Of a stretch of DNA of 64,000 bases, positions 9,064 through 52,269 are shown one piece after another. The stretch spans positions 8,048,515-8,112,514 of the forward strand of contig NZ_CP101750.1 in NCBI RefSeq assembly GCF_026810505.1, written 5' to 3'. This DNA is from Streptomyces sp. Je 1-369 (GTDB taxonomy: Bacteria; Actinomycetota; Actinomycetes; Streptomycetales; Streptomycetaceae). A program made the translations under genes and the position numbers. How positions within the stretch are numbered: position 1 is the stretch's first letter; the number at the start of each line of letters is the position of its first letter. The notes under the pieces were generated by a model. The model made no database searches, was not told where the DNA came from, and saw only the letters and a list, made by a program, of their open reading frames with translations.

Positions 9064-9092
9064 GTCCAAGTGGGCGGGGCCCGCGGTTGGAC
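9064..9092. promoter_or_regulatory. StrR-type operator upstream of the PP2C phosphatase gene
   Basis: GTCCAAGTG-N11-CGGTTGGAC, with both arms identical to those at 40794 and 52241. It begins 38 bp after the strR-type stop codon and ends 90 bp before the ATG at 9183. The spacer is very G+C-rich. It is either a true operator of the phosphatase gene or a leftover from a time when cluster genes followed strR here. Confidence 0.8.
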
Positions 9093-9182
9093 GGCGGAGC
9101 CCTGCCCGCCGCCCGCCGCCGCCCCGCTCCGGGCGCCGTGCTCCCGCGTGCGGGCGCGGGAGCCTCCGCCTAGCGTGGGCCC

Positions 9183-11282
9183 ATGGAGCGCGACCCGGCG
9201 GGGCAATGCCGCTGTGGACAGCCGGCCGGGGAACCGGCCGGCTGTTTCCTCGCGCTGTACGGGGCCGCGCTGCGCACGGGCCGCTTCGACTGGGACCTCG
9301 ACACGGGCCTGATGACGATGGACGCCACCGCCCACGAGGTCTTCGACGTACGCCCCGAGCAGTACGACAACCGGCCCGATACCCTCGCGTCCCGCGTGCC
9401 GACCGTCGAAGGGCACCGCCTCGACCAGATTGTCTCGCACGCCCTGAAGGACGGTAGCGAGACGTACGGCGCGTACTTCCGGATCCGCTGCCACACCGGC
9501 GCGCTGCGCTGGACCCACACCCAGGGCTGCATCCAGCGGGACGCCACGGGCCGCCCGCGCCGCATCGTGGGCCTCGTCAGGGACGCCACCCGGGAACTCG
9601 GCGACAGCCCGGCCGCGCTGCGCGAGCGCGCCGAGGAGGAGGCGGAGCGGCGCCGCACCACGAGCCTCGTCCAGGGCACCACGGCGGCGCTCGCGCACGC
9701 CCGCACGGTCCGGGACGTCATCGACGTCCTGCGCGACACCCACGGCCTCGCCCACCTGGGCGCGTCGAACCTGGTCATGGGGCTCGTCGAGGCCGGCCGC
9801 ATCCGGCTCGTCGCCGAGGGCCCCGCGGGCAGCTTCGTGCCCGGCACCCGCCTCACGGGCGTCGACGAGGACTACCCCATGAGCGAGGTCGTCCGCACCC
9901 TCGCGCCGCGCTACATCGAGACGGCCGACGACTTCGCCGAGTCCTACCCGCTGCTCTGGCCGCACATCGACGAGCTCGGCATCACCGCGGCCGCCTATCT
10001 GCCCCTGATCGCGCAGGCCCGCCCCATCGGCGTGCTCGGCCTGCTCTACCAGGACAAGACGGGCTTCACCGAGGACGAGCGCAACGTCCTGGTCGCCCTC
10101 GGCAGCAGCATCGCGCAGAGCCTGCAACGCGCCATGTTCTACGAGCAGGAGAAGGACCTCGCCCAGAACCTCCAGCAAGCCATGCTGCCCCGCACCATCC
10201 CCGGCGTGCCGGGCGCCGAGATCGCCGTCCGGTACCGCTCGGCGGCCATCGGACGGGACATCGGCGGCGACTGGTACGACGTGATCCCGCTGCCCGGCGG
10301 CCACGTCGGCGCCGTCATCGGCGACGTCCAGGGCCACGACACGCACGCCGCCGCCGTCATGGGCCAGCTCCGCATCGTCCTGCGCGCCTACGCCGCGGAG
10401 GGCCACACGCCCGCCACCGTCATGGCCCGCGCCTCCGGGTTCCTGCACGAACTGGACACCGACCGCTTCGCGACCTGCCTCTACGCCGACGCCGACCTGA
10501 CCACCGGAGTGGTGCAACTCGTCCGCGCGGGACACCTCGACCCACTCCTCCAGCGCGTCGACGGCTCCTGCCGCCGGGTCCCCGTGGACGGCGGCCTGCC
10601 CCTCGGCCTCTCCGCGGAGTTCGGCCGCCTCGACTACCCCGTCACCACCCTCGAACTCGACCCGGGCCAGACCCTGTTGCTCTGCACCGACGGCCTCGTC
10701 GAGGAGCCCGGCGCCGACCTGGACGACGGCATGCGCGCCCTCGCGGAACTCGCCGCCGTCGCACCCCGCGACCTTCAGCGGCTCGCCGACCGGCTCTGCG
10801 GCATCGTCGACGGCCGCGGCGGGGAGGACGACGCCGCCCTCCTGCTCCTGCGCCGCCGCACCGACGACGTGCCCCGCGCGGGCGGCCGCCTCCAGCAGCA
10901 CGTCGCCCCGAGCGACCCGGAGGCGCTCGCCGAGGCCCGGCACATGATCGCGGCCGCGGTGCGGGCCTGGGGCGCGGGCGAGCGCGCCGACGAGATCGAG
11001 CTGGCGGCCGACGAAGTGATCACCAACGCCCTCATGCACACCGATGGGTCCGCGATCGTGACCCTGCGCGTCCTGACCGGCACCGACCGGCGGCTGCGCG
11101 TGGACGTCGAGGACTCGTCGAGCGCCCTGCCGCGCCGCCGCGACGCGGGCGAGTCCGGGGTGTCGGGCCGCGGCCTGCTCCTGGTGGACCGGCTCGCGGA
11201 CGCGTGGGGCGTCGAGGCGCGCGGCGGCGGCAAGTGCGTGTGGTGCGAGTTCATCGTGCCCGTCAGAGAAGAGCGGGAGTGA
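9183..11282 (+). CDS. PAS-GAF-SpoIIE phosphatase with RsbW-like ATPase domain
   Basis: A 699-residue multidomain signalling protein. Domains in order: PAS (about residues 25-135, WTHTQGCIQRD and a PAC-like end), GAF (about 160-310), PP2C/SpoIIE phosphatase (about 330-550, with IGRDIGGDWYDVIPLP, VIGDVQGHD and CTDGLVEEP), and a C-terminal HATPase of the RsbW type (about 570-695, ELAADEVITNALMHTDG). Such proteins dephosphorylate anti-anti-sigma factors and may also act as kinases. The promoter appears leaderless: TAGCGT lies 7 nt before the ATG at 9183. No sigma or anti-sigma partner is adjacent. A perfect StrR-type operator stands 90 bp upstream, an unusual neighbour for this family. Confidence 0.88.
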   Translation: MERDPAGQCRCGQPAGEPAGCFLALYGAALRTGRFDWDLDTGLMTMDATAHEVFDVRPEQYDNRPDTLASRVPTVEGHRLDQIVSHALKDGSETYGAYFRIRCHTGALRWTHTQGCIQRDATGRPRRIVGLVRDATRELGDSPAALRERAEEEAERRRTTSLVQGTTAALAHARTVRDVIDVLRDTHGLAHLGASNLVMGLVEAGRIRLVAEGPAGSFVPGTRLTGVDEDYPMSEVVRTLAPRYIETADDFAESYPLLWPHIDELGITAAAYLPLIAQARPIGVLGLLYQDKTGFTEDERNVLVALGSSIAQSLQRAMFYEQEKDLAQNLQQAMLPRTIPGVPGAEIAVRYRSAAIGRDIGGDWYDVIPLPGGHVGAVIGDVQGHDTHAAAVMGQLRIVLRAYAAEGHTPATVMARASGFLHELDTDRFATCLYADADLTTGVVQLVRAGHLDPLLQRVDGSCRRVPVDGGLPLGLSAEFGRLDYPVTTLELDPGQTLLLCTDGLVEEPGADLDDGMRALAELAAVAPRDLQRLADRLCGIVDGRGGEDDAALLLLRRRTDDVPRAGGRLQQHVAPSDPEALAEARHMIAAAVRAWGAGERADEIELAADEVITNALMHTDGSAIVTLRVLTGTDRRLRVDVEDSSSALPRRRDAGESGVSGRGLLLVDRLADAWGVEARGGGKCVWCEFIVPVREERE

Positions 11283-11292
11283 GGGAAGAGCC

Positions 11293-12150
11293 ATGCCCGA
11301 ACTGCCAGAAGTGGAAGCGCTGCGCGAGTTCCTGACGGGCCATCTGGTCGGCCGGGAGATCGAGCGTGTGCTGCCCGTCGCCGTCAGCGTCCTCAAGACG
11401 TACGACCCACCGCCCACCGCCCTGGAGGGCACCGTCACCGCCGTGGAGCGGTACGGCAAGTTCCTCGACATCGACGCCGACGGGACGCACCTGGTCACCC
11501 ACCTCGCCCGCGCGGGCTGGCTCCGCTGGCACGACAGCCTCCCCGAAGGCCTGCCGCGCCCCGGCAAGGGCCCGTTGGCGCTGCGCGTCGTCCTGGACAC
11601 GGGGGCGGGCTTCGACCTCACGGAGGCGGGCACGCAGAAGCGCCTCGCGGTGTACGTCACGGAGGCGCCGCTCGACCTGCCCGGCATCGCGCGGCTCGGC
11701 CCCGACCCGCTGGCCGCGGACTTCGACGAGGAGCGGTTCGCGGAGCTCCTGGCGGGCGAACGGCGGCAGATCAAGGGGGCGTTGCGCGACCAGAGTCTGA
11801 TCGCGGGCGTCGGGAACGCGTACAGCGACGAGATCCTGCACGCGGCCCGCATGTCCCCGTTCCGGCTCACGTCGAGCCTCACCGAGGAGGATGTCCATGG
11901 GCTGCATGTGGCGCTGCTGGCCACGCTGACCGAGGCGGTGGAGCGCTCGCGCGGTGTCGCGGCGGGCCGTCTCAAGGCGGAGAAGAAGAGCGGCCTGCGC
12001 GTGCACGGCCGCACCGGCGAGCCGTGCCCGGTGTGCGGCGACACGATCAGGGAGGTCTCCTTCGCCGACTCGTCGTTGCAGTACTGCCCGACCTGCCAGA
12101 CGGGCGGGAAGCTGCTCGCGGACCGGAGGATGTCGAGGCTGCTGAAGTAG
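11293..12150 (+). CDS. Fpg/Nei-family DNA glycosylase
   Basis: A 285-residue base-excision repair enzyme. After the initiator Met comes the catalytic N-terminus PELPEVE, with Pro2 as the expected nucleophile. The helix-two-turn-helix region includes IKGALRDQSLIAGVGNAYSDEIL, and the C-terminal zinc finger is CPVCGDTIREVSF...YCPTCQTGGK. It starts 10 nt after the phosphatase gene with GGGAAGAG upstream, so it may be cotranscribed with it. Sequence alone does not separate formamidopyrimidine-type from Nei-type specificity; the loop residues suggest a mycobacterial Fpg2/Nei-like branch, but I am not sure. Confidence 0.9.
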   Translation: MPELPEVEALREFLTGHLVGREIERVLPVAVSVLKTYDPPPTALEGTVTAVERYGKFLDIDADGTHLVTHLARAGWLRWHDSLPEGLPRPGKGPLALRVVLDTGAGFDLTEAGTQKRLAVYVTEAPLDLPGIARLGPDPLAADFDEERFAELLAGERRQIKGALRDQSLIAGVGNAYSDEILHAARMSPFRLTSSLTEEDVHGLHVALLATLTEAVERSRGVAAGRLKAEKKSGLRVHGRTGEPCPVCGDTIREVSFADSSLQYCPTCQTGGKLLADRRMSRLLK

Positions 12151-12199
12151 CGCGGTGGTGTGGCGCGGTGTTGTGGCGCGGTTCAGGGGCGCCGCAGGT

Positions 12200-12856
12200 T
12201 CAGGGGCGCCGCAGGGTCAGGAGCGGCTCGCCCCGGGCCGTGCGCACCTCGTACCGGTCGGTCTGCGCGGTGCGCAGGGCCGCGGTGCCTTCCGTCCGCA
12301 CGGTCGGTGCGGGCACGCGCCACGACATGACGCTCTGCTCGGATCCGTCGGTGGCGACGGCGACCAGCTCGCAGACCCGCTCCCCGCCCGCCGCGTGTGT
12401 GGCCGTATCCCGCACCGTGAGGCCGATCTCCGCCCCCCAGGCGCGGCCCCGGGCGGTGAGCGTGGCGGAGACCCCGCCGCGGGCGTCCCGCGCGGTGATC
12501 CGCACCGGCCCCGGACCGTCCTTCGGAGCGAGGGTCACGGCGGGCACGCCGAGGGCCAGGACAGCACCCACGGCGACCGCGCACAGCCGTCGTCCGCACC
12601 GCACACCGTGCAGCCGCCCTGCCCGGCTCAGAAGGCGGTCCAGGAGGCCGGGGGAGGGCGCGGCGAACGGTTCCACGGGAGCCCGGGTCGCCCGGCCGTA
12701 GAGCTCCAACTGGAGCGCCGCCGTGTGGAGTCCGTCGAGCTCCAGCAGGCAGGCGGGACAGTCCATGAGGTGGTCCTCGAAGCGGAAGGCGTCCGCCTCG
12801 TCCAGGACGCCGAGCGCGTAGGCGCCCGCGTCACGATGCCGCTCCAGGGGCCTCAT
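12200..12856 (-). CDS. zinc-binding anti-sigma factor-like membrane protein
   Basis: A 218-residue protein. The start at 12856 is preferred because AGGGA lies upstream and the protein then begins RPLERHRDAGAYALGVLDEADA. The motif HLMDCPACLLEL (about residues 34-45) fits the HXXXCXXC signature of ZAS anti-sigma domains. One membrane helix (about residues 90-115, AVAVGAVLALGVPAVTL) separates it from a C-terminal extracytoplasmic domain of about 100 residues, consistent with an RskA-like regulated anti-sigma factor. No ECF sigma gene lies next to it: the upstream gene is a hypothetical protein. The partner sigma factor is therefore unknown. Confidence 0.75.
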   Translation of the reverse strand: MRPLERHRDAGAYALGVLDEADAFRFEDHLMDCPACLLELDGLHTAALQLELYGRATRAPVEPFAAPSPGLLDRLLSRAGRLHGVRCGRRLCAVAVGAVLALGVPAVTLAPKDGPGPVRITARDARGGVSATLTARGRAWGAEIGLTVRDTATHAAGGERVCELVAVATDGSEQSVMSWRVPAPTVRTEGTAALRTAQTDRYEVRTARGEPLLTLRRP

Positions 12857-12945
12857 GGCGTTCCCTGCCGTTCCGTGTCGGTGCGGAGTGCCGTTCCTCC
12901 TCCGGTACGCGGCGGAAGACGGAATCACTCAAGGGCCGAACGGTC

Positions 12946-13455
12946 TCAGAAGAGATGGATCGCCAGATGCCCCAGCGGCAGCCCGAGCCGCCACGCCGGG
13001 GTCCACACCTTCGGCCCGTCCTCCTCGCCCTGGACGGCGCGGCCGGGCACGGAGTCCAGGTCGGGCGCGAGCAGCTCGGTCTCCTGGAGCCAGCGCCACG
13101 CCTGGTCGGCGAGGTCCAGGTCGGGCGCGGGGCCCGCGGCGACGGCGTCGGCCGTGAGCAGCGCCATCCGCTCGCGCACCCAGTCCTGCCACGGCTGGCC
13201 GTACGCGGTCAGGCTCAGCCACGTCTCCAGCTGGGAGACCACGCGGATTCCGGACAGCTCGCCTCTGGTGTCCGACAGGAAGATCGTCAGGGCCAGGGCG
13301 TCGCGGCCCGCCCGGTACTCGAAGGAGGTGGGCGGCATCAGATCGCCGGTGCGCAGCAACTCGTCGGCGATGTACTCCGCGTACAACCACGCCATGGGGA
13401 CGACGAGTTCGCCGCCCCGGGGGCCATCCGTGTTCCCGCTGCTTTCCTGCCGCAT
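12946..13455 (-). CDS. hypothetical protein (169 aa)
   Basis: An open frame with good third-position G/C bias starting at ATG 13455 behind GGAAGGCGGAG. The protein begins MRQESSGNTDGPRGGELVVP and contains AWLYAEYIADELLRTGDLMPP and WRWLQETELLAPDLDSVP. There is no signal peptide or membrane helix, and I recognise no domain. It lies 89 bp before the anti-sigma-like gene on the same strand and may be cotranscribed with it. Its soluble, helical, acidic character would fit a small regulatory or chaperone-like protein, but no function can be assigned. Confidence 0.65.
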   Translation of the reverse strand: MRQESSGNTDGPRGGELVVPMAWLYAEYIADELLRTGDLMPPTSFEYRAGRDALALTIFLSDTRGELSGIRVVSQLETWLSLTAYGQPWQDWVRERMALLTADAVAAGPAPDLDLADQAWRWLQETELLAPDLDSVPGRAVQGEEDGPKVWTPAWRLGLPLGHLAIHLF

Positions 13456-13743
13456 CCGCTCCGCCTTCCTACGGTCCGTGCGCGTCACCGGCCTTTGGCC
13501 CCCCAATCCGGCACACGGTGAGGACAGCCGATTACCCGAGAGGGGTGCGGAGCAAGGCGCTTTACGGAGGCTTGACCCGGGCGTCGGTTTCACCGCAGGT
13601 GGGCGGCCCTGTGTTGTTCGCGTCACAGGTGGAATTGTATGACTCCGTTTCAGGTACTTGAACGGCAATGCTCCTTGATTATCCGTTAAGTACGTATGTG
13701 GATTCATCTGGCCGAATATCGCCCCAGCCAGGGAGTCCGACCG

Positions 13744-14970
13744 ATGAAGCAGCGCGCACGGATCACACGGCACACACGTCCCGCCGCCACCTCCCACACC
13801 TCGCGGAATGCACCATTGAAGGCCCCGCGTCCGCGTCCCGCGACGGCCGCCACCGCGGCCCTCCTCATCGCCGGTCTCGCGGGCGCAACCGCCTGCACGG
13901 CCCCGGCGCCCCATCCGGCCGGCGGATCCGCGGCGGGCAAGCGCGGCTTCACGCTCGCCGCCTCCGGTGACGTCCTGCCACACGACTCGATCATCCGTGC
14001 GGCCAACGCGGACGCGGGCGGCGACGGCTACGACTTCAGGCCGATGCTCGCGGGCGCCAAGCCCGTCATCAGCAAGGCCGACCTGGCGATCTGCCACATG
14101 GAGACGGTCTACGGCGCGGACGGCGACTACAGCGGCTACCCCAGCTTCAAGTCCCCGCCCCAGGTGGCCCGCGCCCTCAAGGCCACCGGGTACGACGCGT
14201 GCTCCACCGCCTCCAACCACACCCTCGACGACGGCGCGGACGGTGTGCGCCGCACCCTGGACGCGCTCGACAAGGCGGGCGTCAAGCACGCGGGTTCGGC
14301 CCGCACGGCCGCCGAGGACAGGACCCCGGCGTGGCTGCGGGCGGGCGACGCCAAGGTCGCGCAACTCGCGTACACGTACGGCACGAACGGCTACCCCCTG
14401 CCGAAGGGCAAGCCGTGGACCGTCGACCTCATCGACCGCGGCAAGATCGTGGCGGACGCCCGAGCGGCTCGCGAGGCGGGCGCCGACGTCGTGGTCGTCA
14501 GCCTGCACTGGGGCAGCGAGTGGCAGGACGCGCCCGACAAGCAGCAGCTGCGCCTCGGCAAGCAGCTCACCGCGTCCCGCACGGACGGGCGCCCCGACAT
14601 CGACCTCATCCTCGGCACCCACGCCCACGTCCCGCAGGCCTACGAGAAGGTCAACGGCACCTGGGTCGTCTACGGCATGGGCGACCAGGTCGCAGGCGAG
14701 ATGATCAACCACGAAGGCGCGCACGACCCGCGCGGCAACCAGGGCACCATCGGCCGCTTCACCTTCGCGCCGCCCGCCGAGCCGGGCGCCCGCTGGCAGG
14801 TCAAGAAGGCCGAGTTCCTGCCGATGTGGTTCGACACGGACTCCGTCCGCGTCGTCAACCTCAACACCGCCCTCGACCGCGGCGCCGACGTGAGCGACGT
14901 CCGCGACCGCGTCCGCCGTGTCGTCCTCAGCCGCGGCGCGGGCAAGGACGGCCTCGTCATGGGGAAGTAG
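13744..14970 (+). CDS. CapA-family secreted protein (metallophosphatase fold)
   Basis: A 408-residue protein starting at ATG 13744 with AGGGAG 8 nt upstream. A basic N-terminus is followed by a hydrophobic segment (about residues 30-50, ending in ATACTAP, possibly a weak lipobox). The rest is a CapA/PGA_cap domain: ASGDVLPHDSI, CHMETVY, TASNHTLDDG, VSLHWGSEWQ and LGTHAHVPQAYE carry the metal ligands of the calcineurin-like fold. Relatives in Bacillus take part in poly-gamma-glutamate export; many actinomycete members stand alone, as this one does, and have unknown substrates. The 288-bp region upstream (13456-13743) is A+T-rich near 13640-13720 and should hold divergent promoters. Confidence 0.85.
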   Translation: MKQRARITRHTRPAATSHTSRNAPLKAPRPRPATAATAALLIAGLAGATACTAPAPHPAGGSAAGKRGFTLAASGDVLPHDSIIRAANADAGGDGYDFRPMLAGAKPVISKADLAICHMETVYGADGDYSGYPSFKSPPQVARALKATGYDACSTASNHTLDDGADGVRRTLDALDKAGVKHAGSARTAAEDRTPAWLRAGDAKVAQLAYTYGTNGYPLPKGKPWTVDLIDRGKIVADARAAREAGADVVVVSLHWGSEWQDAPDKQQLRLGKQLTASRTDGRPDIDLILGTHAHVPQAYEKVNGTWVVYGMGDQVAGEMINHEGAHDPRGNQGTIGRFTFAPPAEPGARWQVKKAEFLPMWFDTDSVRVVNLNTALDRGADVSDVRDRVRRVVLSRGAGKDGLVMGK

Positions 14971-15007
14971 CCGCGGTCGTCCCCTGCTCGGACGCTCCTG
15001 ACCCGCG

Positions 15008-16441
15008 TCACCTCTTGGTGGTGGTTCCGTCCGTCTTCGCCAGCTCCGACTTCCGGTACGAGTAGCCGAAGTAGACGACGAGGCCGAGCGCGAACCACAC
15101 GGCGAACCGCACCCAGGTCTGCCACTGCAGGAACGTGATCAGCCAGATCGAGAAGACCACCCCGATCGCGGGCACCACCGGCATGCCGGGGCAGCGGAAC
15201 GTGCGCGGCAGCTCCGGCCGCTTGTAGCGCAGCACGATCACCGCGACACACACCACGACGAACGCCAGCAGGATCCCGATGTTGGTCAGCTCGGCCGCCT
15301 CGCCGATGGGCAGGAACCCGGCGATGGCGGCCGACGCGATCCCGACGATCCACGTCACGCGCGTCGGCACGTGCCGCGTCGGATGCGTCTTGGCGAACCA
15401 CTTGGGAAGGAGCCCGTCCCGGCTCATCGAGAACCACACGCGCGTGCAGCCGAGCATGAACGTGAACATCACGGTGAGGATGCCGATGATCGCGCCGACC
15501 GCGATGACGTCCGCGAGGCCGCCGAGCCCCACGGACTTGAAGGCCGTGGAGAAGCCGCTCTCCGGGTCGACGTCCTTGTAGCTCTGCATGCCGGTGAGGA
15601 CCAGGCACGCGAGGACGTACAGCACCATCGAGATCGCGAGGGAGTAGAGGATCGCCTTCGGCATGTGGCGCTGCGCGTCCTTGGACTCCTCGGCCGCCGT
15701 CGACATGGCGTCGTAGCCGAACACCGCGAAGAACACGGTCGCCGCGCCCGTGAACGCGCCGCTGACCCCGTAGGGGAAGAACGGATCGTAGTTCCCGGTC
15801 TCGATGTGGAAGAAGCCGACCGCGATCACGACGAGGACCACGATCACCTTCAGGACGACCACGATCATCTCGAAGCGCGCGGCGTTCTTGATGCCGAGCG
15901 TGAGCAGGTACGCGATGAACAGGCACAGCACCGCGGCGAACAGGTCGACCTTGTGCCCGTCACCGGTGCCGGGCGCGCCCATCATCCAGTTCGGCAGCTC
16001 GGCCCCCATCTCCTCGACGAGGAAACCGAAGTAGCCGGAGATGCCGATCGCGACCACGGCGACGATCGCGGTGTACTCCAGGAGCAGGTCCCAGCCGATG
16101 AACCAGCCGGTCAGCTCGCCGAGCACCACATAGCCGTACGTGTACGCCGACCCCGCCTTCGGGATCATCCCGGCGAATTCGGCGTACGAGAAGGCGGCGG
16201 CCGCGCTCGCGACCCCCGCGATCAGGAAGGAGACCAGCACCGCGGGGCCCGCCGTGCCGTTGGCGACCGCCCCGGCGAGGCTGAAGATGCCGGCGCCGAT
16301 GATGCCGCCGACGCCGATGGCGGTGAGCTGCCAGAGCCCGAGGGACTTGGCGAGCCCGCCGCCCGCCCCGGGCTCCGACTCATCGATGTGCTCGATGGGC
16401 TTGCGGCGCAGCACGCCCTGCCCCATCCGTAGTCCCGACAT
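15008..16441 (-). CDS. APC-family amino acid permease
   Basis: A 477-residue integral membrane protein with about 12 hydrophobic segments. ATG 16441 is chosen because GAGGTGGAG lies just upstream. The N-terminal IGVGGIIGAGIFSLAG is the helix-1 signature of cationic-amino-acid-type APC transporters, and helix 3 (GSAYTYGYVVLGELTGWFIG) and the PKAILYSLAISMVLYV stretch fit the same branch. It faces the CapA gene tail to tail with a 37-bp gap. Substrate is uncertain; basic amino acids are likely by family resemblance. It could import precursors for any metabolic use, and nothing links it to the peptide cluster. Confidence 0.88.
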   Translation of the reverse strand: MSGLRMGQGVLRRKPIEHIDESEPGAGGGLAKSLGLWQLTAIGVGGIIGAGIFSLAGAVANGTAGPAVLVSFLIAGVASAAAAFSYAEFAGMIPKAGSAYTYGYVVLGELTGWFIGWDLLLEYTAIVAVVAIGISGYFGFLVEEMGAELPNWMMGAPGTGDGHKVDLFAAVLCLFIAYLLTLGIKNAARFEMIVVVLKVIVVLVVIAVGFFHIETGNYDPFFPYGVSGAFTGAATVFFAVFGYDAMSTAAEESKDAQRHMPKAILYSLAISMVLYVLACLVLTGMQSYKDVDPESGFSTAFKSVGLGGLADVIAVGAIIGILTVMFTFMLGCTRVWFSMSRDGLLPKWFAKTHPTRHVPTRVTWIVGIASAAIAGFLPIGEAAELTNIGILLAFVVVCVAVIVLRYKRPELPRTFRCPGMPVVPAIGVVFSIWLITFLQWQTWVRFAVWFALGLVVYFGYSYRKSELAKTDGTTTKR

Positions 16442-16544
16442 GAGCTCCACCTCTTCGCAGCCGGCCGTCGGCTGATGGCGGATCATGATGGCCCAGCAAG
16501 GGGCGCTACGGAAGGAGCCACACCAGGCCACCGTCACCGGTTCC

Positions 16545-17006
16545 CTACGGGACCACCGTCACCGGCCAGCGGCCCGCCTTCACCAGACGGACGGCGACCG
16601 AACCCACGATGCGGTGGCCCGCCTGCTCGGAGGCGCCCACGACGACGGCGTCGGCCTTGAGGTCGTCGGCGGCGGTGACCAGACCGGTGTAGGGATCACC
16701 GCGGAACGTATGGAACTCCCACCGGACGTCGAATATGTCCTTCACCCGCTCGGTCGCGGCCCGGATCTCCGTGATCAGCCCCTCGGCGATCTCGTCGGTG
16801 GTCTCGGCGACCGGTACGCCGAACGCGGCGCCCGCCGCCATCACCGGCTGGATGTACACGACGGCGAGCAGCGCCCGCTGCCGACGGGCCAGGCCACCGG
16901 CATATGCCGCGGCTCTCAGCGAGGAGTCGGAGCCGTCGACCCCGACGACGATCACCTTGGGCCCGTCGGTGCCGCGTTCGAACTGGTGGGACTGGTCTTC
17001 ACTCAC
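16545..17006 (-). CDS. universal stress protein (UspA family)
   Basis: A 153-residue single-domain USP beginning at GTG 17006. It contains VIVVGVDGSDSSLRAAAYAG at the N-terminus and the ATP-binding signature VVVGASEQAGHRIVGSVAVRLVKAGRWPVTVVP at the C-terminus, the GX2GX9GS/T-type loop. A TAATCT hexamer lies 6 nt before the GTG, which suggests a leaderless transcript. It lies upstream of the permease gene on the same strand with a 103-bp gap; USP proteins linked to amino acid permeases are common. Confidence 0.88.
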   Translation of the reverse strand: MSEDQSHQFERGTDGPKVIVVGVDGSDSSLRAAAYAGGLARRQRALLAVVYIQPVMAAGAAFGVPVAETTDEIAEGLITEIRAATERVKDIFDVRWEFHTFRGDPYTGLVTAADDLKADAVVVGASEQAGHRIVGSVAVRLVKAGRWPVTVVP

Positions 17007-17176
17007 GCCGAGAGATTAGCGGAGGCAGTCATACCGCCTGTGTTCCGGGCCGGTCGGGGCGGGCCGCCGCGCCCCGCCGTCCTGGCCTGTCGTCCGGGCA
17101 TGCCGTCCAGGGCCGCCGTGCCCCGTCCCGCCGCTCTCGACCTGCGCGGTGGCACACCTCTTCCTAGAGTCGTGCC

Positions 17177-20100: not shown

Positions 20101-20464
20101 GACCCAGCTGCCCACCTTCTACAAGGACTTCCCGACCGACGTCTCCCCGCTCACCCGCCAGCACCGCACCGACCCGCGCCTCGCCGAACGCTGGGACCTC
20201 GTCGCCTTCGGTACGGAACTCGGCACCGCCTACTCCGAGTTGACCGATCCGGTCGAGCAGCGCCGCCGCCTCACCGCGCAGTCGCTGCTCGCCGCCGGGG
20301 GAGACCCCGAAGCCATGGAGATCGACGAGGACTTCCTCGACGCCCTGGAGTACGCGATGCCGCCCACCGGAGGCCTCGGCATCGGCGTCGACCGGCTCGT
20401 CATGTTCCTCACCGGCCTGACCATCCGCGAGACCCTGCCCTTCCCCCTGGTCCGCCGCGTCTGA
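17177..20464 (+). CDS. lysX: bifunctional lysylphosphatidylglycerol synthetase / lysyl-tRNA ligase (LysX type)
   Basis: A 1095-residue fusion. The N-terminal part (about residues 25-235) has six to seven membrane helices; residues about 240-580 form the MprF-type lysyl transferase domain. The C-terminal part (about 620-1095) is a class II lysyl-tRNA synthetase: an OB-fold ([23 protein letters not shown]), motif 2 ([24 protein letters not shown]) and motif 3 ([15 protein letters not shown]). The same architecture in Mycobacterium LysX makes lysyl-phosphatidylglycerol, reducing negative membrane charge and giving resistance to cationic peptides. The transcript is probably leaderless (TAGAGT 8 nt before the ATG). 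As a peptide-producing strain, the host could benefit, but this gene is common outside such clusters. Confidence 0.93.
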
Positions 20465-20534
20465 ACGGGTGCTTTCGGGGGCCGCCCCGGTGTTGGTGTT
20501 CCGCGCGGGCCTTCCGCCATGCGACGGATTAGTC

Positions 20535-21380: not shown

Positions 21381-21429
21381 GTCCCCGGGGCGTACTCGCC
21401 ACGAGCCCCCCGTCCGTCTGGTTTCCCGC

Positions 21430-22119: not shown

Positions 22120-22452
22120 GCTCTATCCCCTCTCGAACACGGCGGAGAGCCGCGTCCGTTGCGCGTACCAAAACGCTAAACGCGGGGCGCGCGGCGTGCG
22201 AAAGGGCGGGAGCGAACGGGTGGCGACAGGGGCGAAGTGCGCCATCCGAGTCGCGCCGGACAGGATTTTTCTGACGGTCCGTGACCTGCGGTGATGCCGG
22301 GTCGCGCGGACGCGCCCCGGCGTGTCGTCTCACCAGGACGGCCGATCGCCGACATGCGGGCCCGCGCACGTCATCTGAGGGTCAGTCTGGGAGGCGCTCT
22401 CGCCGATCGACCGGGGACTGTATCCCCGGGGCGTCTTCCGCGGAGGAATGCC
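22120..22452. promoter_or_regulatory. divergent intergenic region, sortase and surface-protein promoters
   Basis: This 333-bp gap has no convincing gene. On the minus strand, TAGCGTTTTGG near 22168-22182 is a probable -10 region of the sortase gene; a very similar TAGCGTTTCGG precedes the gene that starts at 23677, which suggests a shared type of promoter. On the plus strand the last 20 bp contain GGAGGAA before ATG 22453. I see no other structure I can name. Confidence 0.4.
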
Positions 22453-22962: not shown

Positions 22963-23054
22963 CCCGGGACCCCGTACCACCGCCGGGACGGCGCGACCCC
23001 CTTCCGCCCCGCGCCCGGCACCACCCTGCTCGCACGGCAGGTGAAGAGCGCCGC

Positions 23055-23084
23055 GCCCCCGGGATCCGGAGACATCCCGGGGGC
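23055..23084. terminator. bidirectional terminator between two convergent surface-protein genes
   Basis: An 11-bp perfect stem (GCCCCCGGGAT with ATCCCGGGGGC) and an 8-nt loop, placed in the 142-bp gap between the ends of the 22453-22962 and 23105-23677 genes, which converge on it. Confidence 0.7.
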
Positions 23085-23104
23085 CGCGGGCTGCCCGCCG
23101 CGGG

Positions 23105-24130: not shown

Positions 24131-24188
24131 GGGACCAGGGTGCGCCGTTTCGGGCCGCGGCGCACCGTATTTCACGGCCAATGCGGGA

Positions 24189-24953: not shown

Positions 24954-24968
24954 GAATTCCTCCGGCGA

Positions 24969-26807: not shown

Positions 26808-26826
26808 CCCTCCGGCGCACGGACAG

Positions 26827-34495: not shown

Positions 34496-34496
34496 G

Positions 34497-38168: not shown

Positions 38169-38175
38169 GTCCGGG

Positions 38176-39521
<1,346 letters not shown>

Positions 39522-40760: not shown

Positions 40761-40800
40761 CGTGTCCGTGTGTGTCCGTGCCTGTCCGTGCCTGTCCAAG
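40761..40800 (+). repeat. four 10-bp direct repeats running into the StrR-type operator
   Basis: Four consecutive decamers of the form NNTGTCCGTG (the last is CCTGTCCAAG) with a strict 10-bp period. The fourth one is the left arm of the operator at 40794-40822. Spacing of one helical turn would place the partial half-sites (GTCC-GTG) on the same face of the DNA as the operator, possibly for cooperative binding. Sequence is observed; function inferred. Confidence 0.55.
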
Positions 40801-40822
40801 TGTGCGAATCGGCCGGTTGGAC
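40794..40822. promoter_or_regulatory. StrR-type operator of the HpgT-DpgABC operon
   Basis: GTCCAAGTG-N11-CGGTTGGAC. It ends 84 bp before ATG 40907. Arms are identical with the sites at 9064 and 52241, only the 11-bp spacers differ. It probably activates the long transcript hpgT-dpgA-dpgB-dpgC-hydrolase. The TTGGAC of the right arm might overlap a -35 region. Confidence 0.85.
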
Positions 40823-43162: not shown

Positions 43163-43223
43163 CCGTGACCGGCAGCACGCTATATCCGCGCAGCAAACCA
43201 CGCATGTGGGGGTGGACCTTCCG

Positions 43224-46434
<3,211 letters not shown>

Positions 46435-46446: not shown

Positions 46447-47268
46447 ATGCCGATCGCCCGGATCAACGGGACCCGCCTCGGCTACGACGAGTACGGCACC
46501 GGGGAGCCGGTCGTCATGGTCACCGGCACCGGCGCGCCCGGCCGCATGTGGCGGACGCACCAGGTGCCGGCCCTCACCGTCGCCGGGTACCGGGTGATCA
46601 CCCTCGACAACCGAGGCGTCCCGCCGAGCGATCCGTGCCCCGAAGGGTTCACGCTCGCCGACATGGTGGCGGACGTCGCGGGGCTCATCGAGCACCTGGG
46701 GGACGGGGCGTGCAGGGTCGTCGGCTACTCGCTCGGCGCGATAGCGGTCCAGGAACTCCTGCTCGCCCGCCCCGACCTCGTCCACCAGGCCGTCCTGATG
46801 GCGACGAGCGGCCGCACGGACGCCCTGACCGCCGCGATGACCGCCGCCGACATGGAACTCAGCGACGCCGGCGGCAAACTCCCGCCCCGCTTCGCCGCCT
46901 ACGTACAGGCCCTCCAGAACCTCTCCCCGCGCACCCTCAACGACGAGGAGCGGCTGCGGGACTGGCTGGCCGTCTTCGAGATGTCCACCGTGGACGTGAC
47001 GGGCGTACGCGGGCAGCTCGGCCTGCAACTCGTCCCCGACCGGCTGAGCGCGTACCGGAACATCGACAGCCGCTGTCTGGTCATCGGGTTCCAGGACGAC
47101 CTGGTCATCCGCCCGCACCTCACCCGCGAGGTCGCGCAGGCCATTCCCGGCAGCGTCCATACGGAGATCCCCGGCTGCGGCCACTACGGATATCTGGAGC
47201 GACCCGCCGAAGTGAATTCCGCGATCACAGGATTCTTCGCGGGCCGAAGCCCGCGAATTGCGCACTGA
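46447..47268 (+). CDS. alpha/beta hydrolase in the position expected for dpgD
   Basis: A 273-residue hydrolase, 12 bp after dpgC and on the same transcript. The nucleophile elbow is GYSLG (Ser95), the acid is likely in GFQDD, and the His in GCGHYGYLERP. HG-type oxyanion segment VTGTGAPGRMW. No signal peptide. Comparable hydrolases occur in Hpg-containing peptide clusters such as those of ramoplanin and enduracidin, with unproven roles. It could hydrolyse acyl-CoA or mischarged carrier proteins, or release 3,5-dihydroxyphenyl intermediates; substitution for DpgD is unlikely chemically because the fold differs. Confidence 0.85.
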   Translation: MPIARINGTRLGYDEYGTGEPVVMVTGTGAPGRMWRTHQVPALTVAGYRVITLDNRGVPPSDPCPEGFTLADMVADVAGLIEHLGDGACRVVGYSLGAIAVQELLLARPDLVHQAVLMATSGRTDALTAAMTAADMELSDAGGKLPPRFAAYVQALQNLSPRTLNDEERLRDWLAVFEMSTVDVTGVRGQLGLQLVPDRLSAYRNIDSRCLVIGFQDDLVIRPHLTREVAQAIPGSVHTEIPGCGHYGYLERPAEVNSAITGFFAGRSPRIAH

Positions 47269-47302: not shown

Positions 47303-47331
47303 TTGTAGGCCCCGAACCGCCCGGCTAGCGT
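47303..47331 (+). promoter_or_regulatory. candidate sigma-70-type promoter of mbtH and the ABC exporter
   Basis: TTGTAG (47303-47308) and TAGCGT (47326-47331) separated by exactly 17 bp, 39 bp before the mbtH start. It would uncouple mbtH and the exporter from the hpgT-dpg transcript. No StrR-type operator lies here. Confidence 0.55.
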
Positions 47332-47369
47332 GAAACACGTCCTGCCGACGGCAATTGATCGGAGTGGTT

Positions 47370-47594
47370 ATGCCGAACCCGTTCGACGACGAAAACGGTA
47401 CGTTCCTGGTTCTCGTCAACGACGAGAACCAGCATTCGCTCTGGCCCGCCTTCGCCGAAGTCCCGGCCGGCTGGCGGACCGTGTTCGGAGAAGACACACG
47501 GAAGGCCTGCCTGGACTACATCGAGGAGAACTGGACGGACATGCGTCCGCAGAGTCTCATCGACGAGATGGAGAAGTTCGAAGCCGCCGGCTAG
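47370..47594 (+). CDS. MbtH-like NRPS accessory protein
   Basis: A 74-residue protein; ATG 47370 with GGAG 6 nt upstream. The family signature is complete: [51 protein letters not shown]. MbtH proteins bind adenylation domains and are needed for folding or activity of many of them, especially aromatic and beta-hydroxylated ones. It probably serves the Hpg and other A domains of the NRPSs encoded from 52.3 kb on. Confidence 0.96.
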
Positions 47595-47635
47595 GCGATC
47601 CCCGACCGGAACGACAACGAAAACAGGAGGTTTTC

Positions 47636-49819
47636 GTGGCCATGATCGGCGGCCCGGGGCCGGTACTGATGCGGGGGATGGGTCCCGACGAGGCGGTGAC
47701 CAAGCAGAAAATCAAGCGTGGCACGGCCAAGCGAATCCTCCCCTATACGAAACCGTATCGCTTCAACATAGGCGTTCTCCTGGTCGTCACCGTGCTCAAC
47801 GCATGCAACGTGGTGGCCACCCCCATTCTCTTCAAGTACCTCATCGACGACGGCATCGTCGCAGGGGACACCTCGGTGGTCGTGTGGATCGCCGTCGCGG
47901 TCGCCGTACTCGCCCTGTTCAGCACCGTCTTCGGCTTCGCGGAGGCCTGGTACTCGGGCCGGGTCAGCGAAGGGCTCATCTACGACCTGCGCACCAAGAT
48001 CTTCGACCACGTGCAGCGACAGCCGCTGGCGTTCTTCACCCGCGCCCAGACCGGGTCCCTCGTCAGCCGCCTCAACACCGACGTCGTCGGCGCCCAACAG
48101 GCGGTCACGGCACTGCTGTCCACGGTGGTCTCCGCCGGGCTGACCCTGATCCTCGTCCTCGGCGCGATGTTCTACCTGTCCTGGGTGGTCACCCTGGTCT
48201 CCCTCGTCGTGATCCCGCTCTTCATCCTGCCGGGCCGTGTCGTAGGCCGCAGGCTGCAGCGGATCATGCGCGAGCACATGCAGGTCAACGCCGAGGTCGG
48301 CTCGTTCATGAACGAGCGCTTCAACGTCACCGGCGCCCTGCTCACCAAGCTGTACGGCCGCCCCGCCAGCGAGATGGGCATGTTCTCCCGGCTGGCCCGC
48401 AAGGGCCGCGACCTGGGGGTCCTGACCTCCGTCTACGGCAAGATGCTCTTCCTGACGATGACGCTCGTCGGCGCCGTCGCCACCGCCCTCGTGTACGGCA
48501 TCGGCGGCGCCCTCGTCATCGAGGGCACGTTCCAGATCGGCACCCTGGTGGCGCTCGCGACCCTGCTCACCCGGCTGATGGGCCCGATCAACCAGCTGTC
48601 CAGCGCCCAGACGAGCGTCCTGACCGCCCTCGTCAGCTTCGACCGGCTCTTCGAGATCCTCGACCTCAAGCCGCTCATCTCCGAGAAGGAGAACGCGGTG
48701 CCGCTGCCCGCCGCCTCGGCCACAGCGGCCGCGGACGGCAGCCGCACGGCTCCGGAGGTCACCTTCGAGAACGTCTCGTTCCGCTACCCGAAGGCCGCGG
48801 ACGTCTCGCTCGCCTCACTGGAGTCCATCGCGCTGCCCTCGCAGGAGCGCACGCAGAACACCTGGACGCTGCGCGACCTGACCTTCACCGTCCCCGCGGG
48901 CAAACTCACCGCGCTGGTCGGCCCGTCGGGCGCGGGCAAGACCACCATCACCCACCTGGTGCCGCGCCTCTACGACCCCGTCGAGGGCGTCATCCGGATC
49001 GGCGGCCACGACATCCGCGACGTCACCCTGAAGTCGCTGCACGACACCGTCGGCATGGTCACGCAGGACGCGCACCTCTTCCACGCGACCATCCGCGACA
49101 ACCTCACCTACGCACGCCCCGAAGCGACCGAGCAGGAACTGATCGACGCGTGCAAGGCGGCGCAGATCTGGGACCTGGTCTCCTCGCTGCCCGACGGCTT
49201 CGACACCATCGTCGGCGACCGCGGCTACCGCTTCTCCGGCGGCGAGAAACAGCGCGTCGCGATGGCCCGGCTGCTCCTCAAGGCCCCGCCCATCGTCGTA
49301 CTCGACGAAGCCACCGCGCACCTCGACTCGGAGTCCGAGGCGGCACTCCAACGCGCCCTGAAATCCGCCCTGAAGGGCCGCACCTCCCTGGTGATCGCAC
49401 ACCGCCTCTCCACCATCAGGGACGCCGACCAGATCCTCGTCGTCGACAAGGGCCGGGTCCAGGAGCGCGGCACGCACGAGGAGCTCATGCGACTGGAGGG
49501 CCTGTACGCGGAGTTGTACCGTACGCAGTTCTCCCGCCAGCCCTCAGAGAACGGCGACGCTCCGGTGCCCGAGCCGGTCGGCGGCCCGCCGCACGGCCCC
49601 GGACCGGTGCTCACCGGCGGACCGGGCGGCCCCGGCGGCCCGATGCCGGGCGGCCCGCACGGCGCCTTCCCCGGCGGACCGGGCGTCTTCCTGGCGGGAC
49701 CGGGTGGACCTGGAGGCCCTGGCGGACCCGGTGGCCCGGGAGGTCCCGGTGGCCCGGGAGGCGCACGCCACCACCAAGGCCCTGGCCCCGGCGGCCCACC
49801 GCCCCCCGGCCACGGATGA
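47636..49819 (+). CDS. ABC exporter (fused TMD-NBD) with collagen-like C-terminal tail
   Basis: A 727-residue half-transporter. GTG 47636 has AGGAGG 5 nt upstream; ATG 47642 is an alternative. Residues about 40-330 form six membrane helices (ABC type 1, EAWYSGRVSEGLIYDLRTKIFDHVQRQPLAFF). The ATPase domain (about 370-620) has Walker A GPSGAGKTT, signature FSGGEKQRVAMARLLL, Walker B IVVLDEATAHLD and the H-loop IAHRLSTI. From about residue 640 to the end the chain is almost only Gly and Pro, with (GGP)n runs, plus His. It should act as a homodimer and export the peptide or give immunity. The tail is unusual for this family. Confidence 0.9.
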   Translation: MAMIGGPGPVLMRGMGPDEAVTKQKIKRGTAKRILPYTKPYRFNIGVLLVVTVLNACNVVATPILFKYLIDDGIVAGDTSVVVWIAVAVAVLALFSTVFGFAEAWYSGRVSEGLIYDLRTKIFDHVQRQPLAFFTRAQTGSLVSRLNTDVVGAQQAVTALLSTVVSAGLTLILVLGAMFYLSWVVTLVSLVVIPLFILPGRVVGRRLQRIMREHMQVNAEVGSFMNERFNVTGALLTKLYGRPASEMGMFSRLARKGRDLGVLTSVYGKMLFLTMTLVGAVATALVYGIGGALVIEGTFQIGTLVALATLLTRLMGPINQLSSAQTSVLTALVSFDRLFEILDLKPLISEKENAVPLPAASATAAADGSRTAPEVTFENVSFRYPKAADVSLASLESIALPSQERTQNTWTLRDLTFTVPAGKLTALVGPSGAGKTTITHLVPRLYDPVEGVIRIGGHDIRDVTLKSLHDTVGMVTQDAHLFHATIRDNLTYARPEATEQELIDACKAAQIWDLVSSLPDGFDTIVGDRGYRFSGGEKQRVAMARLLLKAPPIVVLDEATAHLDSESEAALQRALKSALKGRTSLVIAHRLSTIRDADQILVVDKGRVQERGTHEELMRLEGLYAELYRTQFSRQPSENGDAPVPEPVGGPPHGPGPVLTGGPGGPGGPMPGGPHGAFPGGPGVFLAGPGGPGGPGGPGGPGGPGGPGGARHHQGPGPGGPPPPGHG

Positions 49820-49933: not shown

Positions 49934-49952
49934 GCTGTGACCAGTGTGTGAC
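49934..49952 (+). promoter_or_regulatory. GTGAC direct-repeat element upstream of the intact two-component system
   Basis: GCTGTGACCAGTGTGTGAC, matching the element at 4927-4945 in 17 of 19 positions and ending 48 bp before the response-regulator start. GTGACC-type half-sites 11 bp apart suit an OmpR-type dimer, so autoregulation is likely. Function inferred from conservation and position. Confidence 0.6.
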
Positions 49953-50000
49953 CCCCGCTCGGAGATCCTGGTCAGCCATGATCCATCGGGGGGTGGGGCT

Positions 50001-50654
50001 GTGCGGGTGCTGGTGGCCGAGGACCAGACCGAACTGGCGGACTCCGTGGCCAGAGTGCTGCGCAGGGAAGGCATGGCCGTCGACGTCGTCTACGACGGAG
50101 AGGACGCCCTGGAGCGTGCGTCCGTCGTCGACTACGACGTGGTGGTACTCGACCGCGACCTCCCCACCGTGCACGGCGACGAGGTGTGCGGAGCCCTGAT
50201 GGCGGAGCCCGCCCGCACGCGAGTCCTCATGCTCACGGCGTCCGGCACCATCGCGGACCGCGTCGAGGGGCTCAGCCTCGGCGCCGACGACTACCTCCCC
50301 AAGCCCTTCGCGTACGCCGAACTCGTCGCCCGCATCCGGGCGGTGGCCCGCCGCGCCCAGCCGGCCGTCCCGCCGATCCTCGTCCACGGCGACCTGCGGC
50401 TCGACCCCGCCCAGCGGATCGCGACCCGGGCCGGGCACCGACTGGCCCTCACGCCCAAGGAGTTCGGGGTCCTCGAATACCTGCTGGCCGCCCGCGGCCG
50501 CGTCGTATCGGCCGAGGAGCTCCTGGAGCGGGTGTGGGACGAGGCGACCGACCCGTTCACCACGACGGTCAAGGCGACCATCAACAGGCTGCGGCCGAAG
50601 CTCGGTGCCCCGCCGGTGATCGAGACCGTGCCCCGCGGCGGCTACCGGATCTGA
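50001..50654 (+). CDS. OmpR-family response regulator
   Basis: A 217-residue regulator. GTG 50001 starts the receiver directly (VRVLVAEDQTELA); a longer frame begins at 49944 but lacks the family pattern. The receiver keeps the acidic pocket, the phosphoacceptor Asp51 (VVVLDRDLP) and Lys101 (YLPKPF). The winged helix (about residues 125-217) ends FTTTVKATINRLRPKLG and PRGGYRI. The paired kinase starts 4 nt after its stop. A decayed paralogue lies at 4988-5286. In Hpg/Dpg peptide clusters such systems can sense cell-wall stress or control self-resistance; the trigger here is unknown. Confidence 0.9.
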   Translation: MRVLVAEDQTELADSVARVLRREGMAVDVVYDGEDALERASVVDYDVVVLDRDLPTVHGDEVCGALMAEPARTRVLMLTASGTIADRVEGLSLGADDYLPKPFAYAELVARIRAVARRAQPAVPPILVHGDLRLDPAQRIATRAGHRLALTPKEFGVLEYLLAARGRVVSAEELLERVWDEATDPFTTTVKATINRLRPKLGAPPVIETVPRGGYRI

Positions 50655-50658
50655 CGAT

Positions 50659-52092
50659 GTGAAGCGAGACGAGATGACGAAGCGTCTGCGAAGCGCGGCA
50701 CGCGCGGCCCTGTCACGCACGGCCCTGCTACGCGGGTCCCTGCCCCGAGCAGTCCTGTCCCGAGGTGTCCTCCCCAGCGCCGGGCTCGTCTCGCGCCTCG
50801 TGCCCAGGCGGGTCCGCATGCGGCTCACCCTCCTGTACGGCCTGCTGTTCGTCATCTCCGGCGCCGTCCTGCTCACCATCACGTACCTACTGGTCAACCG
50901 CCCCACCAACACGGTCCTCGTCAGCCGCCGCGGAGGCTCCGGCGCACCCGGCGACGCGGGCGTCCACATGTACACGCGCGACGAGGTCCCCGGCGCGGTC
51001 GACAGCTTCGCGCACGCGCAGCAACAGCAAGCCGTGCGCCAGCACGCCGCCGAGATGCAGCACCTGCTGACCCAGTCCGGCATCGCGCTGGCGATCATGT
51101 CGGTGATCGCCATCGGCCTCGGCTGGATCGTCGCGGGCCGCGTCCTGCGCCCCCTGCGCACCATCACCACCACCGTCCAGCGCATCTCCGCGCACAACGT
51201 GCACGAACGCCTCGCCGTCGAAGGGCCCGGCGACGAACTGAAGGACCTGGCCGACACCGTCGACGGCCTCCTCGGCCGCCTCGAAGCGGCCCTGGACTCC
51301 CACAAACGCTTCGTCGCCAACGCGGCACACGAACTGCGCACCCCCCTGACCGTGGAACACGCACTCCTGGAGGAATCCCTCATCGACCGAGAGGCCACGG
51401 TGGACTCCTTCCGGTCGAACTTCGAGCGCCTCCTCACCCTCAGCGAACAGCAGGCCCGCCTCCTGGAGTCGCTCCTCACCCTGTCCGGCAGCGAACGCGG
51501 CCTCGACCGCAGGGAACCGCTGGACCTGGCCGAGCTGACCGACAACGTGCTGCTCGGCTCCCGCAAGGAGGCCGAACGCCACAACCTGCGGGTCGAGTCG
51601 CACACCCACCCCGCGGGCCTCTGGGGCGACGACGCCCTCGTCGAACGCCTCGTCGCCAACCTCGTGGACAACGCCATGGGCTACAACGTGCCCGACGGCT
51701 GGGTGACGGTCGTGACCGGCGTACGGGGCGGCTGCGCGTTCGTCCGCGTCTCCAACACCGGACCGCGGATACCGCCCACCGGAGTGAGCCGCCTCTTCGA
51801 GCCCTTCCAGCGCATCGGCAGGAAAGCCGACAACGGGCATCACGGGCTCGGTCTGTCGATCGTGCGCTCCATCGCCGCGGCCCACGACGCGACGCTGAAC
51901 GCGCACGCGCGGGCACAGGGCGGCCTCGTCGTGGAAGTGGGCTTCCCTCTGCGAACGACGGCACCACCGCTGCCGCACGCGCCGTATGCGACGCAGGCGC
52001 CGTACGCGCCGTACGCGCAGAACCAGCCGCCGACACCGGTCACCGAGCCTTACGACGCCGGGCCCCGCTCCTTGAGCGCCGCCTCGGAATAG
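50659..52092 (+). CDS. HAMP-type sensor histidine kinase
   Basis: A 477-residue kinase taken from GTG 50659, 4 nt after the response-regulator stop; ATG 50674 is an alternative. A basic N-terminus of about 50 residues precedes helix 1 (LTLLYGLLFVISGAVLLTITYLL), a short outer loop, and helix 2 (GIALAIMSVIAIGLGWIVAG). HAMP (RPLRTITTTVQRIS), H-box AAHELRTPLTVEHAL, N-box NLVDNAMGYN and G-box GHHGLGLSIV are all intact. The C-terminus has a Pro/Ala/Tyr repeat (PYATQAPYAPYAQN). Partner of the preceding regulator. Compare the paralogue at 5287, where the H-box is altered. Confidence 0.9.
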   Translation: MKRDEMTKRLRSAARAALSRTALLRGSLPRAVLSRGVLPSAGLVSRLVPRRVRMRLTLLYGLLFVISGAVLLTITYLLVNRPTNTVLVSRRGGSGAPGDAGVHMYTRDEVPGAVDSFAHAQQQQAVRQHAAEMQHLLTQSGIALAIMSVIAIGLGWIVAGRVLRPLRTITTTVQRISAHNVHERLAVEGPGDELKDLADTVDGLLGRLEAALDSHKRFVANAAHELRTPLTVEHALLEESLIDREATVDSFRSNFERLLTLSEQQARLLESLLTLSGSERGLDRREPLDLAELTDNVLLGSRKEAERHNLRVESHTHPAGLWGDDALVERLVANLVDNAMGYNVPDGWVTVVTGVRGGCAFVRVSNTGPRIPPTGVSRLFEPFQRIGRKADNGHHGLGLSIVRSIAAAHDATLNAHARAQGGLVVEVGFPLRTTAPPLPHAPYATQAPYAPYAQNQPPTPVTEPYDAGPRSLSAASE

Positions 52093-52240
52093 GAATAGCC
52101 CGGGTACGTCCCGGCCAATGCCAATCCCGGACGGTCGCGCCCATTCCTCCCGCGGCCATAACATCTAATTCTCCGTGCGAGGCCGCGCGCATTTTCCCGG
52201 GCAGGCCTTCCGGTACGCCCGAGCGCCTGCCCACCTCGCC

Positions 52241-52269
52241 GTCCAAGTGCGAGAACTGAGCGGTTGGAC
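52241..52269. promoter_or_regulatory. StrR-type operator of the first NRPS gene
   Basis: GTCCAAGTG-N11-CGGTTGGAC. It ends 84 bp before ATG 52354 (87 bp before ATG 52357), the same distance as in front of the HpgT fusion gene. The N11 spacer is CGAGAACTGAG. Confidence 0.85.

Follow-up and report, generated by a model that had tools for sequence, protein, structure and literature searches.

Can a regulator of antibiotic biosynthesis act on a gene cluster from which it is separated by a long run of core genes? The question is raised by a 64,000-nucleotide stretch of the Streptomyces sp. Je 1-369 chromosome (contig NZ_CP101750.1, positions 8,048,515 to 8,112,514; "the window", whose numbering is used below), in which a StrR-family gene (strR) is followed by a predicted operator (site 1), while two further copies (sites 2 and 3) precede biosynthetic operons on the far side of 27.7 kb of core genes that separate the regulatory cassette from the biosynthetic block. 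We favour, at a probability of roughly 0.65, a reading in which the operators are of the kind used in glycopeptide antibiotic (GPA) clusters, the StrR protein acts through sites 2 and 3 to drive the distant corbomycin-type cluster, and site 1 was inherited with the cassette. The protein would bind the predicted operators at sites 2 and 3 and, once bound, would turn on the two main operons (from 40907 and 52357), about 28 kb away across the core genes. The cassette would have arrived with the operator that is now site 1, the genes beyond this operator having been lost or left behind, and site 1 would now stand 5' of an older promoter belonging to a core gene of the SpoIIE type. The elements on which this reading turns are:

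8045..9025, plus strand: StrR-family regulator with a TTG start, identified by the names of its relatives, its place in a tree and its ParB-like fold
9064..9092, plus strand: site 1, exact predicted operator of the GPA-StrR kind, 39 bp 3' of the strR stop and 90 bp 5' of the SpoIIE ATG
40794..40822, plus strand: site 2, exact predicted operator 5' of the Hmo-HpgT operon
52241..52269, plus strand: site 3, exact predicted operator 5' of the first nonribosomal peptide synthetase (NRPS) gene

Three predicted operators of the glycopeptide antibiotic type

The original prediction had described three sites with identical 9-bp arms around an 11-bp spacer, at 9064, 40794 and 52241, and all three are exact in sequence. 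They are the only places in the window with up to 3 mismatches, where shuffled sequences lead one to expect 0.07. The genome-wide search that had been proposed as a check gave no random spread of the pattern: across 8.82 Mb, five places were found at the same tolerance, namely sites 1 to 3 with 0 mismatches and two others (G000:C1:1870559 and 3242743) with 3 mismatches each, which we take to be chance matches. Sites 1 to 3 are thus the sole exact copies in the genome, for which base composition predicts about 0.00025. Among 392 genomes of the genus, a match with at most 1 mismatch occurs in 52, and a reversed control pattern matches in 2. Each of 18 other site-bearing genomes tested, S. alboniger among them, encodes a StrR protein at E ≤1e-60. 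Where the cluster continues past the window (loci L006, L007 and L008; L and G numbers are our handles for loci and genomes), a scan that allowed up to 2 outer-arm mismatches found no additional operator. The looser form GTCCAR(N)17YTGGAC, at 1 mismatch, yielded control and real matches in roughly equal number, and the longer pattern or local scans were therefore used instead.

Shawky 2007 and Retzlaff and Distler 1995 are reportedly the primary sources for StrR-type operators. The operator of Bbr and Dbv4 is given as GTCCAR(N)17TTGGAC (PMC6022936), and a motif of this type is conserved across the bal, dbv and tcp clusters (PMC7852140; PMC6022936). For AoStrR1, eight promoters were bound in electrophoretic mobility shift assays and the consensus is written GTCCAN18TTGGAC (PMC7852140). 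The StrR of streptomycin biosynthesis has the consensus GTTCGActG(N)11CagTcGAAc (PMC8306873). Sites 1 to 3 fit the GTCCAR(N)17TTGGAC form exactly, their 9-bp arms being the 6-bp arms plus three inner bases, and two of them lie at promoters of cluster operons. Streptomycin-type arms are matched in the window with no fewer than 5 mismatches, at places none of which is site 1, 2 or 3. The arms had been regarded as a variant of the GTTCGA-type consensus, which is wrong, as they correspond exactly to the separate consensus of the GPA regulators. On this sequence match, sites 1 to 3 are predicted operators of the GPA (Bbr/Dbv4/Tei15*) StrR kind; with the streptomycin StrR the system shares the protein family and the 9-N11-9 geometry, but the arm sequence differs.

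The StrR-family regulator

The assignment of the gene at 8045 to the StrR family is borne out. Its relatives are named as streptomycin biosynthesis or ParB-domain proteins, and both tree and fold agree, although the product itself has no Pfam or NCBIfam match at 1e-3. The structural model (mean predicted local distance difference test 78, predicted template modelling score 0.43) matches Noc, KorB and ParB at E values of about 1e-5 with low whole-chain template modelling scores, and points to a ParB-like N-terminal part joined to a helix-turn-helix. Several StrR relatives carry PF02195 and PF13384, which we take to be ParB and helix-turn-helix domains. In 41 StrR relatives many residues around the predicted helix-turn-helix (186-208) are invariant, which is in keeping with the near-invariant outer arms of the operators. 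The ParB-like part also contains an invariant DGxHR motif; ParB proteins depend on cytidine triphosphate, and this raises the question of nucleotide binding for StrR regulators.

In the tree, which takes in S. toyocaensis NRRL 15009 (the A47934 producer) and leaves out Bbr, Dbv4 and Tei15*, the protein groups with the StrRs of GPA clusters. Seven StrR matches were found in this genome, strR itself at 100% and the others at 37-49% identity. Since the next best relative is only 49% identical, the protein encoded at 8045 is supported as the cognate regulator; its binding, its activating role and this cognate status are what we infer. Two of the distant paralogues (37% identical) are each present twice, at G000:C1:15185-16105 with 8803922-8804842 and at 52208-53194 with 8766833-8767819. 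Mirrored copies near both chromosome ends are as expected of terminal inverted repeats of at least about 53 kb.

The gene precedes site 1 as the last member of a cassette with the order LuxR, response regulator, kinase, 3-deoxy-D-arabino-heptulosonate 7-phosphate (DAHP) synthase, StrR:

1772..4777, plus strand: LuxR-type regulator with AAA domain (Pfam AAA_16, GerE)
4937..5680, plus strand: response regulator, partial match to both domains
5230..6534, plus strand: sensor kinase (Pfam HAMP, HATPase_c)
6559..7698, plus strand: DAHP synthase (Pfam DAHP_synth_1)

In the response regulator frame, the match to the receiver profile is confined to its first half and the DNA-binding profile is matched in part; the frame also overlaps that of the kinase. 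Relatives have a full-length gene at that place, and the frame may carry an internal deletion.

A cluster separated from its probable regulator

To the right of the core genes, the window holds the following biosynthetic block:

37059..38537, minus strand: Hmo-like oxidase at the left edge of the block, start of the reading frame unsettled
38176..39312, minus strand: HmaS, 4-hydroxyphenylpyruvate dioxygenase family, found at the equivalent place in contiguous GPA clusters
39519..40739, plus strand: prephenate dehydrogenase (Pdh)
40907..43162, plus strand: Hmo-HpgT fusion (flavin mononucleotide-dependent dehydrogenase and aminotransferase)
43206..44309, plus strand: DpgA-type synthase (type III polyketide synthase)
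44521..46434, plus strand: DpgC-like protein of the enoyl-CoA hydratase family
46447..47268, plus strand: alpha/beta hydrolase
47330..49819, plus strand: ATP-binding cassette (ABC) transporter
49944..50654, plus strand: response regulator of the cluster
50659..52092, plus strand: sensor kinase of the cluster
52357..63567, plus strand: first NRPS gene (4 condensation and 3 adenylation stretches matched)

More NRPS genes lie past the window edge. Gene content and order follow the corbomycin (crb) cluster: the matches to the corbomycin producer WAC 01529 are in order, save for three small gaps at 97572-101272 (window numbering), towards the right end. By these matches the block from about 37 kb rightward is classified as a corbomycin-type (type V) GPA cluster.

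The idea of a StrR regulon stands as regards the StrR gene, the StrR-type operators and the position of two of these at biosynthetic operons; it is qualified by site 1, which lies at the 3' end of strR and faces a core gene. What the earlier reading of the locus had overlooked are the roughly 28 kb of core genes between regulator and cluster, an arrangement that is shared with the corbomycin producer. Because these 28 kb lie between strR and Hmo, strR is not inside the biosynthetic cluster and is filed as a detached variant of the GPA StrR regulators.

The junction between cassette and SpoIIE gene recurs in seven genomes: our own, S. atriruber, S. silaceus, WAC 01529, S. alfalfae, Streptomyces sp. 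G44 and S. alboniger. The same seven have the junction between a UvrA-like gene and the cluster; UvrA adjoins Hmo in six of them and HmaS in Streptomyces sp. G44. Where strR and Hmo are on one contig, the distance is 28.0 kb (our genome), 26.0 kb (WAC 01529), 29.2 kb (S. alboniger) or 24.6 kb (S. alfalfae).

Spacing and promoters at sites 2 and 3

The predicted distances from site to ATG hold in this genome, at 90 bp for SpoIIE, 84 bp for Hmo-HpgT and 87 bp for the NRPS gene, whose start at 52357 is preferred over 52354 because it is the only one of the two ATGs kept in all eight aligned genomes (our own included). A fixed spacing of 84-90 bp as a defining feature was rejected, as the gap between site 3 and the NRPS gene ranges from 13 to 123 bp across these eight genomes. 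For Hmo-HpgT, a simple text match gave gaps of 43 bp in S. alboniger, where the start so located may be wrong, and 155 bp in WAC 01529. All seven split genomes and G014 retain sites 2 and 3 with the outer 12 bases unchanged.

The two sites differ in their surroundings. At site 2, ten aligned leaders share a conserved block 3' of the operator whose spacing hardly varies, as expected if StrR were to sit just 5' of a promoter. At site 3 the conserved promoter-like block (GGTCGC...TAACAT..AAT; 52133..52169, plus strand) lies 5' of the operator. It has the form GGTCGC, about 20 bases, TAgCAT and AAT in 8/8 genomes, exactly in seven and with one base off in S. atriruber, and L062 has a similar block with no operator visible within the stretch examined. 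The operator at site 3 may thus sit in the NRPS leader and not ahead of the promoter, and this pattern of conservation would allow that StrR may work differently at its two operons.

Site 1 and the core genes

The core genes begin 90 bp beyond site 1:

9168..9182 (approximate span), plus strand: promoter-like element CGCCTAGCGTGGGCC, just 5' of the SpoIIE ATG
9183..11282, plus strand: core gene for a PAS-GAF-SpoIIE-HATPase protein
11293..36860, strand mixed or unstated: remaining core block with Fpg, LysX, EAL/GGDEF, fumarate reductase-type and UvrA-like genes, among others

A SpoIIE relative was found at the set cut-off in 19 of 31 genomes searched, all of the same genus and our own included. 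In five genomes of the genus that are free of the cassette, the SpoIIE gene and the gene on the cassette's left flank are both present and adjacent among conserved genes; the UvrA-like gene was seen in four of these. The promoter-like element is kept in six split genomes. It also occurs in the cassette-free genomes G004 and G015, the only two of nine compared SpoIIE loci to have it, the other seven having a different sequence there; nine further loci, read from the opposite strand, are left out of this count. Because the element precedes SpoIIE in two genomes without the cassette, site 1 is ruled out as the sole SpoIIE promoter.

Site 1 itself is kept with 18/18 arm bases in our genome, 17/18 in S. 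atriruber and 18/18 in S. silaceus, in the latter with a 10-base spacer. A site lies within 380 bp 3' of strR in 28 of 46 StrR loci and within 600 bp 5' in none, counted over loci with StrR at ≥52% identity and at least 380 bp of 3' flank, with the 380-bp cut chosen post hoc and close relatives counted separately. In L175, L176, L178, L188 and L189 (genomes G036, G048, G337, G317 and G140) an operator follows the strR stop codon at a distance of only 9 to 16 bp. By gene order, site 1 has a counterpart in the operator that follows strR in G212. Beyond the arms the two share little (4/11 spacer and 7/12 downstream bases), while site 2 shares 8/11 spacer bases with the G212 operator; as the likeness outside the arms is weak, homology of site 1 with the G212 operator rests on position and gene order. 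Most likely, site 1 is an operator that was inherited with the cassette and remained in place as the genes past it were lost or did not come along; a later co-option for SpoIIE is possible.

Origin of the cassette

In the StrR tree, the clade of the split genomes (100/97) groups with G212 (100/98) and then with L052-L057 (100/97), and the StrRs of G014, L062, L061 and L063 form another group. In the ABC transporter tree, the split genomes stand with G014 and L062 (100/100), away from L052-L057. G212 has the full cassette order including the DAHP synthase, followed by an operator and an ABC gene; G001 has kinase, StrR, a one-mismatch site and ABC. Because the StrR and ABC trees disagree, and because of the gene order in G212 and G001, a separate origin of the cassette is favoured, and this comparison of gene order and two gene trees suggests that cassette and biosynthetic block have different histories. 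The cassette would have lost its own biosynthetic genes and come to regulate in trans a cluster of different descent some 28 kb off. At least seven Streptomyces have retained the pair, and as the corbomycin producer is one of them, this would explain its missing strR. We hold this takeover to be tentative, at slightly less than an even chance.

A simpler history, the chief rival and one that we consider doubtful, is that one contiguous cluster (LuxR-StrR-Hmo-HmaS-Pdh) was split by the core block. Both parts would then have a common past, and site 1 would be the original intergenic site between strR and hmo. Hmo is indeed the convergent neighbour of strR in the contiguous L058, L063, L066 and L073, an operator lies between the two in L056, L058, L066 and L073, and the break in the split genomes falls exactly at the strR/hmo boundary. 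Against this history stand the conflict between the two trees and the order of the cassette, which, in having a response regulator, a kinase and a DAHP synthase, is that of G212 and not the LuxR-StrR of L061 and L063. A split would also sit poorly with the missing relic of strR beside UvrA: a search between UvrA and Hmo in six genomes gave no convincing match.

Site 1 might alternatively have acquired a function where it stands. If it had been co-opted, StrR would regulate the SpoIIE-type phosphatase and link antibiotic production to a stress or developmental signal. The arm bases kept in our genome, S. atriruber and S. silaceus, about 90 bp 5' of the ATG, speak for this, and so do the matches outside the arms and promoter, at 79/106 (S. 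atriruber) and 82/106 (S. silaceus) of our positions in a lenient gapped alignment. We nevertheless regard co-option as improbable, as the margin of conservation is modest under such an alignment, the SpoIIE promoter element is present without the cassette in G004 and G015, and site 1 is absent in WAC 01529, S. alfalfae, Streptomyces sp. G44 and S. alboniger. We give about as little credence to the proposal that many GPA strR loci make use of a site 3' of strR, be it in feedback, as a roadblock or in insulation, whatever gene comes next. The 28/46 against 0/46 count fits this proposal, as do the convergent next genes of L056, L058, L066 and L073, but many loci have a co-directional gene next, for which the site can simply serve as promoter, 18/46 loci have no site, and the count carries the late-set cut and the close relatives mentioned above. 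Finally, another regulator, either the LuxR protein or a two-component pair, might run the cluster with StrR and its sites mattering little: the locus encodes a LuxR and two response regulator/kinase pairs, and a conserved promoter-like block of its own precedes the NRPS gene. The conservation of sites 2 and 3 in 8/8 genomes, although leader lengths vary, makes this very improbable.

Related systems and the corbomycin producer

Bbr, Dbv4, Tei15* and AoStrR1 resemble the present case in the exact operator consensus, the StrR-type regulator and the position of sites at GPA operons, but here some 28 kb separate the regulator gene from the biosynthetic block. Bbr and AoStrR1 are described as binding their own upstream region; here, no site was found within 600 bp 5' of strR. 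G212 and L052-L057, presumably complestatin-like clusters, have the same LuxR-response regulator-kinase-StrR-operator-ABC order and the closest StrRs outside the split clade, with NRPS genes seen in L052, L054 and L057. They differ in that the ABC gene directly follows StrR, and in L052 the LuxR-kinase part is on the opposite strand. In the crb region of WAC 01529 the cassette, most of the core block and the biosynthetic block have the same gene order, and the biosynthetic proteins are mostly 65-85% identical; the region differs in the absence of site 1, and two fumarate reductase-type core genes have no match there.

The crb cluster has been reported as being without strR, though putative StrR sites were noted (PMC7567792), and a second statement to this effect is found in PMC7852140. 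The WAC 01529 record (NZ_CP029617.1) has the strR cassette 26 kb from Hmo, and the detached cassette may explain the "missing" corbomycin strR. A captured 76-kb crb clone gave 0 mg/L corbomycin in S. coelicolor M1154, whereas the native strain made 3.4 mg/L and a host carrying an A47934-derived plasmid made 65.4 mg/L, the higher yield being credited by the authors to the plasmid's StaQ (PMC7567792). GP6738, from a cluster with its own strR, reached 98 mg/L in M1154 alone. The span from strR to the last matched gene is 88.8 kb; judged from this span and the authors' statement, the captured region probably excludes the cassette. No report of a detached crb cassette was found among titles and abstract openings, a coverage that leaves most subscription papers outside. 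WAC 01529 also has a second Hmo-HpgT-like gene (G394:C1:7085232-7087595, 58% identical), which suggests another GPA-like cluster in that strain.

Several points weigh against the reading that we favour. The seven split genomes came from StrR or site searches, and joint presence of cassette and biosynthetic block is therefore not an unbiased observation; in 3/7 the two are on separate contigs, and the DAHP synthase was not found in the cassettes of S. silaceus and Streptomyces sp. G44. Site 1 is missing in 4/7. At site 3, a core promoter-like block 5' of the operator is unusual for an activator site. The apparent conflict between trees is one of two genes. The A47934-derived plasmid also carries precursor genes and a DAHP synthase, and the silent clone therefore has other possible causes. 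WAC 01529 holds just one StrR at the cut-off despite its second Hmo-HpgT-like gene, and this single StrR might serve another cluster too.

If the takeover is true, it would be a clear case of the regulatory cassette of one antibiotic cluster serving another. A strR outside the captured region would give a direct explanation for a crb clone that is silent on its own. Where cluster borders are set by neighbourhood, the regulator can be left out, and it can be traced again through a shared operator.

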